Part shown: positions 33,882-38,744 of the stretch, piece by piece
Layout of the letters: each line of letters begins with the position of its first letter
How positions within the stretch are numbered: position 1 is the stretch's first letter
Source of the DNA: Frankiales bacterium
GTDB taxonomy: Bacteria > Actinomycetota > Actinomycetes > S36-B12 > CAIYMF01
Reading direction: 5' to 3'
Length of the DNA: 64,000 nt
Assembly (NCBI GenBank): GCA_016125335.1
Contig: WGLY01000017.1
Span: 124,001-188,000, forward strand
Notes under the pieces: generated by a model
Seen by the model: only the letters and a program-made list of their open reading frames with translations
Told to the model about the DNA's origin: nothing
Database searches by the model: none
Position numbers and translations under genes: made by a program

Positions 33882-35765
33882 ATGGCGCAGACCGACGGCG
33901 GGGCCGCCTGGCGCACCCGCTGGGTGCGCGGGCACGACACCCCGCTGCGCCGGTTCCTGCGCACCGAGAGCGGCGGCGCGGCGGTGCTGCTCGGCGCCAC
34001 CGTCCTCGCGCTCGTGTGGGCCAACGCGGCCCCCGACGGCTACGCGTCGTTCTGGGGCACCGAGGTGTCGGTCGAGGTCGGTGGCCACGGCATCGCGATG
34101 TCCGCGCGCGAGTGGGTCAACAGCGGGCTCATGACGTTCTTCTTCTTCGTCGTCGGCCTCGAGGCCCGGCGCGAGCTCGACGTCGGCGAGCTGCGCGAGC
34201 GGCGGCGCGTGCTGCTCCCGGTCGCCGCCGGCCTCGGCGGCATGCTCGCCGCGGTGCTGGTCTACCTCGCGGTGGGCGCGGGCAGCGGCGTGGCGCACGG
34301 CTGGGGCGTCGCGATGTCGACCGACACGGCGTTCGCGCTCGGCATGCTCGCGCTGGTGGGGCCGCGCTTCCCCGAGGCGCTGCGCACCTTCCTGCTCACC
34401 GTCGTCGTGGTGGACGACGTGCTCTCGCTCGTGGTCATCGCCACGGTGTACACGACCGACATCGAGGGCCTGCCGCTGCTCGTGGCCGCGCTGCTGTTCT
34501 CCCTCGTGATCGCGCTGCTGCGGCTGCGGGTGCGGTCCGGGCTGGTCTACCTCGTGCTCGGCGTGGCCACGTGGGTGGCGCTGCACAACAGCGGCGTCGA
34601 CCCCGTGGTGGTGGGCCTGGCCATGGGGCTGCTCACCTACGCCGGGCCGGCGGCGCGGACCAGCCTCGAGACCGCCACCGACCTGTTCCGCGACTTCCGC
34701 GAGCAGCCCACACCGGAGCTCGCGCGCACCGCGCGCGCCGGGATGGACGCCGCCCTCTCGCCCAACGAGCGCCTCCAGGTGGCCTTCCACCCCTGGACGA
34801 GCTACGTCGTGGTGCCGCTGTTCGCGGTCGCCAACACCGGCATCCCCGTGCGTCCGGACTTCCTGGCCGAGGCCTACCGGTCTCCGCTCACGTGGGCCGT
34901 CGTCGTGGCCTACGTCGTCGGCAAGCCGCTGGGCGTGTTCTCGGTGTCGTGGCTGGTGACCCGGCTCTCCCGCGGGCGGGTCGCCCCGCCGGTGGGCTGG
35001 GTCGCGGTGCTCGGCGGCGGCGCCATCGCGGGCATCGGCTTCACCGTGAGCCTGCTCATCGCCACCCTCGCCTTCGACGGTGCCGCCCTCGACGAGGCCA
35101 AGCTCGGGATCCTCACCGCCGCGACCGCAGCGGCGGCGGTCACGTGGCTGATCTTCCGGGTCGCCGCCGCGCTGCCGGCCGCGCGCAGCGCACGGCTGCT
35201 GCTGGGCTCCGCGGACTCCATCGTCGACCTGCTCGACCCGGTGGACCCGCAGCGCGACCACGTCCGCGGGCCGGAGGAGTCGCCGGTGACCGTGGTGGAG
35301 TACGGCGACTTCGAGTGCCCCTATTGCGGGCAGGCCGAGCCGGTGGTGCGCGAGCTGCTCGCCGGGCACGGCGACATCCGGTACGTGTGGCGCCACCTGC
35401 CCCTCCACGACGTGCACCCCCACGCGCAGCTCGCCGCCGAGGCCTCCGAGGCGGCCGCGCGCCAGGGCGCGTTCTGGGAGATGCACGACCGCCTCCTCGC
35501 CCACCAGGACCGGCTGCGCCTCGACGACCTCATCGAGCACGCCCGCGTGCTCGGGCTCGACACCGGCCGCTTCGCCGAGGACCTGCTCGCCCACGTCGAC
35601 GAGGCCCGCGTGGCCGAGGACCTCGACAGCGCGGACGCCAGCGGCGTCGCCGGGACGCCGACGTTCTTCATCAACGGCCGGCGCCACCACGGCGCCTTCG
35701 ACATCGAGACGCTCTCCGAGGCGGTCCGCCTGGCCAAGGCGCGGGCGCTGGCCGGGGCCCGCTGA
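33882..35765 (+). CDS. nhaA: NhaA Na+/H+ antiporter fused to a DsbA-like thioredoxin domain
   Basis: A 627-residue fusion. Residues about 20-440 form an NhaA antiporter: FFFFVVGLEARRELDVGEL, STDTAFALGML and the paired aspartates of VVDDVLSLVVIA, which bind Na+ or H+ in the known structure, are present. After a short linker, residues about 465-620 form a thioredoxin/DsbA-type domain with the redox pair in YGDFECPYCGQAEP and the cis-Pro loop GVAGTPTFFING. The ATG at 33882 has GGGGAGG upstream. This architecture is known in actinobacteria. The thioredoxin part should be cytoplasmic by the usual topology; its role is unclear. Confidence 0.95.
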   Translation: MAQTDGGAAWRTRWVRGHDTPLRRFLRTESGGAAVLLGATVLALVWANAAPDGYASFWGTEVSVEVGGHGIAMSAREWVNSGLMTFFFFVVGLEARRELDVGELRERRRVLLPVAAGLGGMLAAVLVYLAVGAGSGVAHGWGVAMSTDTAFALGMLALVGPRFPEALRTFLLTVVVVDDVLSLVVIATVYTTDIEGLPLLVAALLFSLVIALLRLRVRSGLVYLVLGVATWVALHNSGVDPVVVGLAMGLLTYAGPAARTSLETATDLFRDFREQPTPELARTARAGMDAALSPNERLQVAFHPWTSYVVVPLFAVANTGIPVRPDFLAEAYRSPLTWAVVVAYVVGKPLGVFSVSWLVTRLSRGRVAPPVGWVAVLGGGAIAGIGFTVSLLIATLAFDGAALDEAKLGILTAATAAAAVTWLIFRVAAALPAARSARLLLGSADSIVDLLDPVDPQRDHVRGPEESPVTVVEYGDFECPYCGQAEPVVRELLAGHGDIRYVWRHLPLHDVHPHAQLAAEASEAAARQGAFWEMHDRLLAHQDRLRLDDLIEHARVLGLDTGRFAEDLLAHVDEARVAEDLDSADASGVAGTPTFFINGRRHHGAFDIETLSEAVRLAKARALAGAR

Positions 35766-35945: not shown

Positions 35946-36377
35946 ATGACGACCACAGCGGAGCGCACCCGGGCCACGACCCGGCCCGCCTTCCGCCTCA
36001 CCTTCGCCCTCGTCGAGAGCTTCGTGCTCGTCGGCGCCGTCGTGGGCGTGCTGCAGCTGTGGACCGGGAGCTTCGCGCCCCCGGTGTCGGACCTGCAGCC
36101 GCTCGGCCTGCACGACTGGAAGCTGCCGGCGGCGTGGCTGTTCTTCTCGGTCGCGATCCCGTCGTCGATGGCCGTGTCCGCGGCACTCGTGCGGCTGCCC
36201 CGGACCCCGGAGATCGTCCTCGTGGCGAGCGCGCTGCTGCTCGTCGAGGTCACCGTGCAGATCCCGTTCGTCGGCCCGAGCGTGCTCCAGGCCGTGATGG
36301 GGTCCATCGCGATCCTGCTCGGAACCCTGGCCTGGCTCGCGCGCCGCGGCGGCACCTGGCGCGCCCAGCTCGACTAG
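35946..36377 (+). CDS. Four-helix membrane protein of unknown function
   Basis: A 143-residue protein with four membrane helices (about 20-40, 57-77, 85-103 and 113-132) separated by short loops. I recognise no family. The ATG at 35946 follows GGAGGGGG; a frame extended 47 codons upstream has an Arg/Gly-rich non-membrane leader that looks untranslated. Its stop codon overlaps that of the convergent MFS gene (the shared tetramer CTAG). Confidence 0.65.
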   Translation: MTTTAERTRATTRPAFRLTFALVESFVLVGAVVGVLQLWTGSFAPPVSDLQPLGLHDWKLPAAWLFFSVAIPSSMAVSAALVRLPRTPEIVLVASALLLVEVTVQIPFVGPSVLQAVMGSIAILLGTLAWLARRGGTWRAQLD

Positions 36378-37627
36378 GCCGTCTCCACGACGCCTGCCGG
36401 CTCCGCGTCCGCGCGCGGCGACGCGTGGTCGTCGAGGTCGCGCAGGGACCGGACCTGCGAGCGCAGCAGGATCGCCGGCCCGAGCCAGGCCACCACCGCC
36501 GCCGCCCAGAGGGCCCCGCGCGCGCCGACGACGCCTGCGGCCAGACCGGCCGTCACCGAGCCCACGGGGATCGCACCCCAGGAGACGAAGCGGACGGTGG
36601 CCATCACCCGCGGGAGCAGCTCGGGCGGCGTCGCGGTCATCCGGTAGGTGCGCGTGCTGATGCTCACGAGCGCCACGCTCGCGGCGAACCCGATGTTGCC
36701 GAGCGCGAACAGCACGAGCGCCGCGAGCCCGGCCCCTGCAGGGATCACGAGGGCGAAGACGGCGGTGCCCACGGAGGCCAGCACGCTGGCGCGGGCCGTG
36801 CCGAGGGCGCCGGTGATGCGGGGCGTCGCCGCGGCGCCCAGCAGCGCGCCGACGCCCTCCGCGGCGAGCAGGACGCCGACCAGCACGGGCGGCGCGTCCT
36901 GCACGCGCAGCAGGTACACGGCGAACAGCGCCATCTGCGCACCGCACACGAAGTTGATGACCGTGGCGTCCCACATGAACGGCGCCATCACGGGGTGGCG
37001 GCTCACGAAGTGCCAGCCCTCGCGGATCATCTGCCGCACCGGCGGCCAGACCGGCGGTGCGGCGACCTCCCGGGCCGGCAGGCTGCGCAGCAGCGCCGCC
37101 GAGATCAGGTAGCTCACGGCGTCCGCGCCGAGGGCCGCCGCCGCACCGGTCAGCTGCACCAGCAGTCCTCCGAGCGCGGGGCCGCCGAGCGACGACGCCG
37201 CGTGCGTGCCGGACATCAGGCTGTTGCGGCGCTGCATCTCCTCCTTCGGCACGATGCTCGGAAGGAAGGTCGAGTTGCTGACGTCGAACAGCACGGTCGC
37301 GAAGCTGACCACGAGGGCCGTGACGACGAGGTGGGCGAAGGTGAGGTGGCCGGCCCACCACGCGAGCGGCACGGAGGCGAGCGCTGCCGCGCGCAGCAGG
37401 TCCATCGCGACCTGCGTCCCCCTCAGCGGCAGCCGCTGGGCGAGCACGCCGGCCGGGAGGCCGATGACGAGCCAGGCGACGAATCCGGCGGCCGTGAGCA
37501 GCCCCACCTGCTGGGGGCTCGCCTGGAGCAGGGTGAGGGCCGCGATGGGGAGGGCGACGACGGTGACCGCCGACCCGGTCGCGCTGATGGTCCCCGCCGC
37601 CCAGTACGTCCAGAACACCCGGTGCAC
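36374..37627 (-). CDS. MFS transporter (EntS/drug-efflux type)
   Basis: A 417-residue major facilitator with about 12 helices. It opens MHRVFWTYWAAGTISATGSA and has the loop 2-3 style AGVLAQRLPLRG and the SNSTFLPSIVPKEEMQRRNS segment typical of the EntS/MFS_3 group, which exports siderophores, macrolides and other drugs. GTG start. It is divergent from an HxlR-peroxiredoxin fusion, with 89 bases between that hold an AT-rich quasi-palindrome; control by that protein is a natural guess. Confidence 0.9.
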   Translation of the reverse strand: MHRVFWTYWAAGTISATGSAVTVVALPIAALTLLQASPQQVGLLTAAGFVAWLVIGLPAGVLAQRLPLRGTQVAMDLLRAAALASVPLAWWAGHLTFAHLVVTALVVSFATVLFDVSNSTFLPSIVPKEEMQRRNSLMSGTHAASSLGGPALGGLLVQLTGAAAALGADAVSYLISAALLRSLPAREVAAPPVWPPVRQMIREGWHFVSRHPVMAPFMWDATVINFVCGAQMALFAVYLLRVQDAPPVLVGVLLAAEGVGALLGAAATPRITGALGTARASVLASVGTAVFALVIPAGAGLAALVLFALGNIGFAASVALVSISTRTYRMTATPPELLPRVMATVRFVSWGAIPVGSVTAGLAAGVVGARGALWAAAVVAWLGPAILLRSQVRSLRDLDDHASPRADAEPAGVVETA

Positions 37628-37643
37628 GTCGCGCCCCCCGTCC

Positions 37644-37658
37644 GTTTACAATCTGAAC
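37644..37658. promoter_or_regulatory. AT-rich quasi-palindrome between divergent MFS and HxlR-peroxiredoxin genes
   Basis: GTTTACAATCTGAAC pairs at five of seven positions about its centre and is by far the most AT-rich stretch nearby. It lies where the two divergent promoters must overlap and is the best candidate site for the HxlR domain encoded next door. Confidence 0.4.
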
Positions 37659-37716
37659 TGACCCTAGCGGGGTCCGATCCCTGGCGGAAGGACCTCCCAC
37701 CTGCTGAGGTGACCCG

Positions 37717-38598
37717 GTGAAGTACACGGACCTGGCCGACGCCGACTGCGGCATCGCCCAGGCGCTCGGCGTGGTGGGCGACTGGTGGACCCTGCTCGTG
37801 GTCCGCGACGTCGCCGGCGGCGTCACCCGCTTCGACGCCCTCCAGCGCGAGCTCGGGGTGAGCCGCAAGACGCTGACGGACCGCCTCGCCGCCCTGGTGG
37901 CCGCCGGCGTACTGCGGCGCGAGGCCTACTCCGAGCATCCGCCGCGCTACGACTACCGGCTCACGGCTGCGGGCGAGGGGCTGCTCCCCGTGCTCATCGC
38001 CCTGCAGGACTGGGGCGACCGGTACGTGCTCGGCGACGGCAGCCTCACCGCGAGCGGCGCGCCGACCTCGGCCGACGCGCGCCGGGCGCAGGCGCTGGTC
38101 GGGCAGGAGGTGCCGGCCGTGAGCCTGACGGGTCACGACGCCCGCGCCACCGACCCGTGCCCGGAAGGCGCATGGACCGTCCTGTACTGCTTCCCCGGCG
38201 CGTTCGCGCCCGGCTCCGACGGCTACCCGCCGGGCTGGAGCACGATCCCCGGCACCACGGGGTGCACGCTCGAGTCGAGGACCTACGCGCGCCGCCACGC
38301 GGCGTTCGCGCGGCGCGGCGTCGCGGTCGTCGGCGTCAGCACCCAGCGCCCCGACCAGCTCGCCGCGTTCGTCGCGAGCGAGGAGCTGCCCTTCCCGCTG
38401 CTGTCCGACGCCGACCTCCGCCTGACCGCGGCGCTGCGCCTGCCCTCGTTCCGGGCCTCAGGGGTGGAACGGCTCAAGCGGCTCACCCTGCTGGTGGACC
38501 CGGGCCGCGTCGTGCGGCACGTGCAGTACCCGATCACCGACCCCGCAGGGTCCGTCGCCGAGATGCTCGACGTCGCGACCACGCTCGCCTCGGCCTAG
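37717..38598 (+). CDS. HxlR-type winged-helix regulator fused to a peroxiredoxin (PrxQ-like) domain
   Basis: A 293-residue fusion. Residues about 8-105 are an HxlR winged helix (GDWWTLLVVRDVAGGVTRFD, then LGVSRKTLTDRLAALV). They keep a cysteine, Cys11, at the site used for redox sensing in HxlR relatives such as YodB and HypR. Residues about 130-293 are a peroxiredoxin: LYCFPGAFAPG, then the probable peroxidatic Cys183 in PGTTGCTLES. The resolving Cys of PrxQ proteins, five residues later, is Arg here, so it looks like a one-Cys enzyme. GTG start. Divergent from an MFS exporter. I infer a peroxide- or electrophile-responsive repressor. Confidence 0.85.
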   Translation: MKYTDLADADCGIAQALGVVGDWWTLLVVRDVAGGVTRFDALQRELGVSRKTLTDRLAALVAAGVLRREAYSEHPPRYDYRLTAAGEGLLPVLIALQDWGDRYVLGDGSLTASGAPTSADARRAQALVGQEVPAVSLTGHDARATDPCPEGAWTVLYCFPGAFAPGSDGYPPGWSTIPGTTGCTLESRTYARRHAAFARRGVAVVGVSTQRPDQLAAFVASEELPFPLLSDADLRLTAALRLPSFRASGVERLKRLTLLVDPGRVVRHVQYPITDPAGSVAEMLDVATTLASA

Positions 38599-38649: not shown

Positions 38650-38660
38650 GTCGGTGAGTG

Positions 38661-38744
38661 TGCGCGAGGGGGGAGTTGAACCCCCACACCCTTTCGGGTA
38701 CACGGACCTGAACCGTGCGCGTCTGCCTATTCCGCCACTCGCGC
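38661..38744 (-). tRNA. tRNA-Leu (anticodon CAG)
   Basis: The minus strand folds as an 84-base class II tRNA. The acceptor stem is GCGCGAG paired with CTCGCGC, the discriminator is A, the anticodon stem is CACGG/CCGTG around TTCAGGT, with CAG at 38710-38708. A long variable arm (TACCCGAAAGGGTG) and the T loop GTTCAACTC complete it. CCA is not encoded. A TAGCCT -10 box at 38760-38755 is well placed for its promoter. Confidence 0.97.

Follow-up and report, generated by a model that had tools for sequence, protein, structure and literature searches.

We describe a family of actinobacterial transcription factors in which an HxlR-type (MarR/DUF24) winged-helix domain and a PrxQ-like peroxiredoxin (Prx) are joined in a single polypeptide. 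The family was recognized in a 64,000-nucleotide stretch of DNA (the window, meaning the whole stretch analyzed) and is conserved and widespread, being found in Micromonosporaceae, Streptosporangiaceae, Streptomyces and other actinobacteria. We propose, with roughly even confidence, that the fusion is a one-component thiol redox repressor with a relay from the Prx to the N-terminal Cys11, which would derepress an exporter. No description of an HxlR-Prx fusion, or of the MerR-Prx fusions considered below, was found in the open literature searched (subscription journals and preprints lay outside this scope). HxlR regulators, PrxQ proteins and peroxidase relays are already known; their union in one bacterial transcription factor is apparently undescribed.

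The HxlR-peroxiredoxin fusion protein and its distribution

The fusion gene occupies positions 37717..38598 of the forward strand, begins with a GTG start codon and encodes 293 amino acids, as judged from the open reading frame, Pfam and the homologue alignment. The HxlR domain covers residues 19-104 (37771..38028, forward strand; PF01638, 3.5e-22, 78.5 bits against a curated cut-off of 20.8), and its relatives in PDB include HxlR (7bze) and HypR/YybR (4a5m). The Prx domain extends over about residues 125-291 (38089..38589, forward strand) and is identified by an AhpC-TSA match (PF00578, residues 180-268, 2e-17), an AlphaFold2 model and Foldseek, the best matches of which are BCP/PrxQ proteins, with 5enu, 3hjp and 5epf as the nearest solved folds. 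The AlphaFold2 monomer has a mean pLDDT of 74.5; its Prx part is good, whereas residues 1-21 and the linker between the domains (94-114) are modelled with too little confidence to judge the distance from Cys11 to Cys183. Base composition around the fusion is unremarkable for this 75% GC stretch.

One scan of approximately 85,000 bacterial and archaeal species genomes identified 21 fusions in Micromonosporaceae and Streptosporangiaceae that align over most of the chain with 61-69% identity, as well as a 22nd homologue (L052) that has lost its N-terminus. Because these 21 homologues belong to other genera, sequence comparison excludes an annotation or assembly accident as the source of the fusion, and the single chain read in the initial annotation is confirmed. 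Plasmid records contributed Streptomyces fusions and a second Nonomuraea type, and about 16 further fusions came from 394 sampled genomes of the class, most of them in one large-genome genus. Another candidate relative (L074) was rejected, as a false upstream start makes a standalone Prx look like a fusion. Where seen, the public annotation of the fusion genes is just 'winged helix-turn-helix transcriptional regulator'. No NCBIfam model covers the HxlR-Prx fusion, and scores stay below the cut-offs of the RrpA and RrpB models (RrpB, 61 of 175 bits).

The candidate operator between the divergent genes

The fusion gene is divergently transcribed from a gene for an MFS exporter (36374..37627, reverse strand), the probable regulated gene, which is of the MFS_3/TIGR00900 H+ antiporter type (MFS_3, 7.8e-29; TIGR00900, 3.7e-55, under the curated cut-off of the latter model). 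The AT-rich quasi-palindrome that the initial annotation had noticed between the two genes corresponds to a predicted operator dyad, GTCCGTTTACAATCTGAACTGAC (GTCcGTT-N9-AACtGAC), at positions 37640..37662 (no strand assigned), separated from the MFS start by 12 nt and from the fusion start by 54 nt. When the window was scanned with a weight matrix built from 21 homologous operators, the two strands of this dyad gave the two best matches of the 64 kb (14.8 and 9.9 bits), followed by a match of 1.9 bits. When the 89-nt intergenic stretch was shuffled 5000 times, just 2 of the shuffles reached 9.9 bits. The exact pattern is matched nowhere else in its own genome. Matrix, shuffles and spacing together make a strong case that the dyad is a genuine operator.

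The window operator is diverged, with 5 of the 12 core positions (GTTCCA/TGGAAC) differing and a degenerate -10 box at the fusion gene; for this reason it was missed by the strict consensus with up to three mismatches and was not singled out by a plain inverted-repeat search of the intergenic region, which returned only GTGCAC. Among the close homologues, a 23-bp dyad near GTGAGTTCCA-N3-TGGAACGCAC directly precedes the fusion gene in 20 of 21 cases, and L046 has a slightly weaker copy. In most homologues a TATACT or TATAGT box (TATA(C/G)T-type -10) directly adjoins the operator, and in 18 of the 21 the distance from the end of the operator to the start codon is 12-15 nt. This arrangement suggests a leaderless transcript for the fusion gene, and the position of the operator would be suited to autorepression.

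With up to three mismatches allowed, 18 of the 19 fusion-bearing genomes (4-14 Mb) have the consensus at what is essentially a single locus, and the reversed-pattern control gave one match over all 19. A consensus that can be written GTnAGTTCC-N5-GGAACnnAC precedes nearly all fusion genes. Most Streptomyces fusions carry this form, doubled in one clade, and matrix scores are poor for two loci (L102 of Nonomuraea gerenzanensis and L146). Tandem-doubled operators were observed before the Streptomyces-group fusions L154, L155, L156 and L161; the first two of these face an ABC-2 exporter operon.

Of 296 genomes of the class, just 6 contain a perfect copy of the family consensus (none does so for the reversed control), the sites being HxlR-Prx, HxlR-only or ex-fusion loci and one unlinked gene; a large regulon is therefore unlikely. 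The unlinked gene (L195; operator at G134:C1:4628338-4628360), with a protein start of about VQQTWTAVDAYFNDLL, lies in a genome in which the fusion is without its divergent exporter, and it is a possible second regulon member.

Probable target exporters and genomic setting

The initial annotation had suggested a search for the domain pair and its neighbours across actinobacteria. A divergent MFS gene of the window's type (56-63% identity) is present in 21 of 22 fusion loci, and no other conserved neighbour was seen across these 22 loci. In Couchioplanes, the fusion gene lies on one contig and an MFS gene with 60% identity to that of the window on another, each behind an operator, and these two operators are the only matches in 7.6 Mb. 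Since both genes keep their own operator though unlinked, autoregulation together with control of the exporter via one shared site is very probable; the initial annotation had named the MFS gene as a likely target. Streptomyces relatives differ in their divergent partner, which is the window MFS type, a different MFS type or an operon for an ABC-2 exporter, and some of these relatives have no exporter left. This variation of partners supports export as the output and does not support one fixed substrate.

The module adjoins a tRNA-Leu (CAG) gene at 38660-38744. Two genomes of the same genus (G002, G005) have an EamA-type transporter gene directly at the conserved tRNA-Leu/FhaA site or one gene off; the window instead has about 5 kb with four genes between, namely an NhaA Na+/H+ antiporter with a C-terminal DsbA/thioredoxin-like domain (33882-35765, next to the module and within the same inserted segment), a small protein, the MFS exporter and the HxlR-Prx fusion. 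The fusion was not found in any other searched genome of this genus, and the gene order suggests that the module was likely acquired at tRNA-Leu. Gene content beside tRNA-Leu also varies among genomes of the genus, which suggests an insertion hot spot.

Relatives with other domain architectures

A MerR-type HTH joined to the same Prx subfamily was found in seven sampled genomes (L131, L135, L137, L138, L139, L141, L145), the domain make-up being checked with Pfam on two of the seven. Because the MerR-Prx proteins fall on a different branch from the HxlR-Prx proteins, DNA-binding domains were probably recruited by this Prx subfamily at least twice. In L135, the stop of the MerR-Prx gene and the start of a thioredoxin gene (1998-2330) overlap.

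Several HxlR-only relatives have the GTT-N9-AAC spacing in common with the fusions, and the exact family consensus is present at two HxlR-only genes. A shared operator of this kind suggests that the DNA-reading part is probably older than the fusion and that the sensing part was swapped. Where the fusions have the Prx, the HxlR-only proteins L053-L067, many of them with a related operator, have three clustered C-terminal cysteines (about C118, C128 and C131), a possible metal site. In a Streptomyces-group genome (G363), a Prx gene without an HxlR part (L122/L162/L198) groups with the fusions and still faces an MFS gene behind a perfect operator; L122 appears to have lost its HxlR part.

Conserved cysteines and the proposed mechanism

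Cysteines were counted in the 41 aligned fusions with an intact N-terminus; L052, which is without the HxlR N-terminus, was left out. The initial annotation had built its mechanism on Cys11 and Cys183 and had named a lack of their conservation as the finding that would count against it. Both are present in all 41 fusions and are the only invariant cysteines, none other being invariant within residues 1-110. Cys11 (codon 37747..37749, forward strand) is the conserved N-terminal DUF24 cysteine and corresponds in the alignment to the cysteine conserved in HxlR (7bze). Cys183 (codon 38263..38265, forward strand) is the peroxidatic cysteine (C_P) in 'GCTLES' and sits near the start of helix 180-192 of the AlphaFold2 model. 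The window protein has two further, non-invariant cysteines (148 and 158), and besides Cys183 several Arg residues are invariant in the fusions.

The PrxQ resolving cysteine (C_P+5) was initially described as lost, which holds for the window protein, where Arg188 (codon 38278..38280, forward strand) takes its place, and for 34 of the 41 fusions, with Arg, Leu, Thr, Met, Ile or Ser at this position. It is kept in the other seven, so that its loss is not obligatory. Of 23 Prx domains that belong to this subfamily but are standalone or MerR-fused, 22 have Cys at this position. The HxlR-fused domains and L122 form one group in the Prx tree (support 100/100), and the resolving-Cys state needs at least five changes on this tree, a pattern that looks as if the residue had been removed repeatedly after fusion. 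The PxxxTxxC motif of peroxiredoxins is absent, the corresponding sequence being PGTTGC in the window protein and PGAxGC in most fusions, with an insertion of about 15 residues before GCT relative to PrxQ. The canonical active-site Thr is out of place in fused and standalone subfamily members alike; peroxidase activity therefore cannot be assumed, and peroxide reactivity is uncertain.

In the proposed mechanism, the HxlR domain would bind the dyad at 37640-37662 as a dimer and repress both the MFS gene and its own gene. Some DUF24 proteins, such as HypR and HxlR, are activators; we infer repression of both genes here from the location of the operator between the two divergent starts. The fused PrxQ-like domain would be the sensing part, Cys183 being converted to sulfenic acid by peroxide, the presumed signal, or by another oxidant. 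With no resolving Cys at hand, the oxidation would pass to Cys11 of the same or the partner chain, the only other invariant cysteine, which belongs to the N-terminal helix where the two DUF24 subunits meet. The resulting disulfide would alter the spacing of the DNA-reading helices, so that DNA is released and the exporter is made; the exported compound would probably be a redox-active or electrophilic toxin. The relay from Cys183 to Cys11 with release of DNA is a plausible step, for and against which the chances are about equal.

The main rival, possible if somewhat doubtful, is that Cys11 alone senses electrophiles by S-alkylation, S-mycothiolation or a Cys11-Cys11' disulfide, as in YodB and CatR, and that the Prx is an attached detoxifier or thiol regenerator. 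Cys11 occupies the established sensor position of DUF24 proteins, where the N-terminal Cys responds to electrophiles, oxidants or formaldehyde (PMC7835342, PMC10458429). The 21 HxlR-only relatives examined all have Cys11 as well, and some of them share the same operator; conservation of this residue alone is thus not diagnostic, being expected of the DUF24 family, and Cys11 need not be a relay partner. An exporter as divergent partner is likewise typical of electrophile or drug responses. However, direct sensing by Cys11 would leave unexplained why the Prx is kept fused, why Cys183 is invariant across several families and why most fusions have lost the resolving Cys on which normal turnover depends, and an enzyme at the abundance of a repressor would detoxify little.

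Alternatively, the Prx could be a 1-Cys sensor without a Cys183-Cys11 bond, Cys183-SOH being resolved by mycothiol or thioredoxin, or a shift in Prx assembly altering the HxlR dimer. Prx oxidation commonly changes assembly and mycothiol is used by Actinobacteria, the seven fusions with a resolving Cys would still function in this way, and the thioredoxin gene downstream of one MerR-Prx gene overlaps it. With such a sensor, however, the conservation of Cys11 would be family history only; we regard this alternative as unlikely. An ordinary ligand-responsive drug-efflux repressor, with the Prx fold as a binding or scaffold domain devoid of a redox role, would agree with the missing PxxxTxxC Thr and with exporter partners that differ between clades, but it is very improbable given the invariance of Cys183 and several Arg, since a relic would be expected to lose its peroxidatic Cys at least once in 41 proteins.

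Returning to the relay from the Prx to Cys11, its broader form is a natural single-chain Prx-to-transcription-factor relay, with the resolving Cys repeatedly removed after fusion and the Prx subfamily separately recruited by MerR-type regulators; we hold it tentatively, rating it a little short of an even chance. With two invariant cysteines, a defined predicted operator and a target, a pair of point mutants and a single gel shift would make the relay idea accessible to test. In addition, the operator provides a handle on the compounds expelled by these exporters in antibiotic-producing actinobacteria.

Comparison with known systems

The fusion resembles the MarR/DUF24 regulators (HxlR, HypR, YodB, CatR, RrpA/RrpB) in its winged helix, N-terminal Cys11 and putative dyad operator at a divergent promoter, and differs from them by about 180 extra residues that constitute the peroxiredoxin. 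HypR has a second Cys in its HxlR domain, whereas the fusions are without a second invariant Cys in this part. The oxidant- and electrophile-sensing C6 of YodB stands at the position of Cys11 (PMC10458429). In HxlR, Lys13 serves the formaldehyde bridge (PMC7835342); a crosslink of this type was rejected for the window fusion, as its residue 13 is Ile.

Compared with PrxQ/BCP proteins, especially the standalone subfamily with YP-x-T-G...GWDxIPGARGCTPxSC, the fusion is alike in fold and in the peroxidatic Cys in GCT. However, its Prx is C-terminal to a DNA-binding domain and mostly without the resolving Cys, which standalone members keep. The MerR-Prx fusions of Actinobacteria have the same Prx subfamily C-terminal to an HTH, but their DNA-binding domain is unrelated, their Prx belongs to another branch of the tree and the resolving Cys is kept in 7/7.

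Relays from a peroxidase to a transcription factor (PMC7481202), such as Orp1-Yap1 and Prx2-STAT3, would resemble the fusion in the proposed logic, with the peroxidase Cys oxidized first and the target thiol next. The roGFP2-Tsa2 delta-CR probes, in which a Prx without its resolving Cys is fused to its target (PMC7662651), are engineered and share with the fusion the design in which the resolving Cys is dropped. Relays of this kind are known as eukaryotic two-protein systems, such as Orp1-Yap1 and Prx2-STAT3, and as engineered fusions, such as roGFP2-Orp1, whereas the family described here consists of one natural bacterial chain with a predicted relay and would thus be a natural candidate for a built-in peroxide-to-gene relay.
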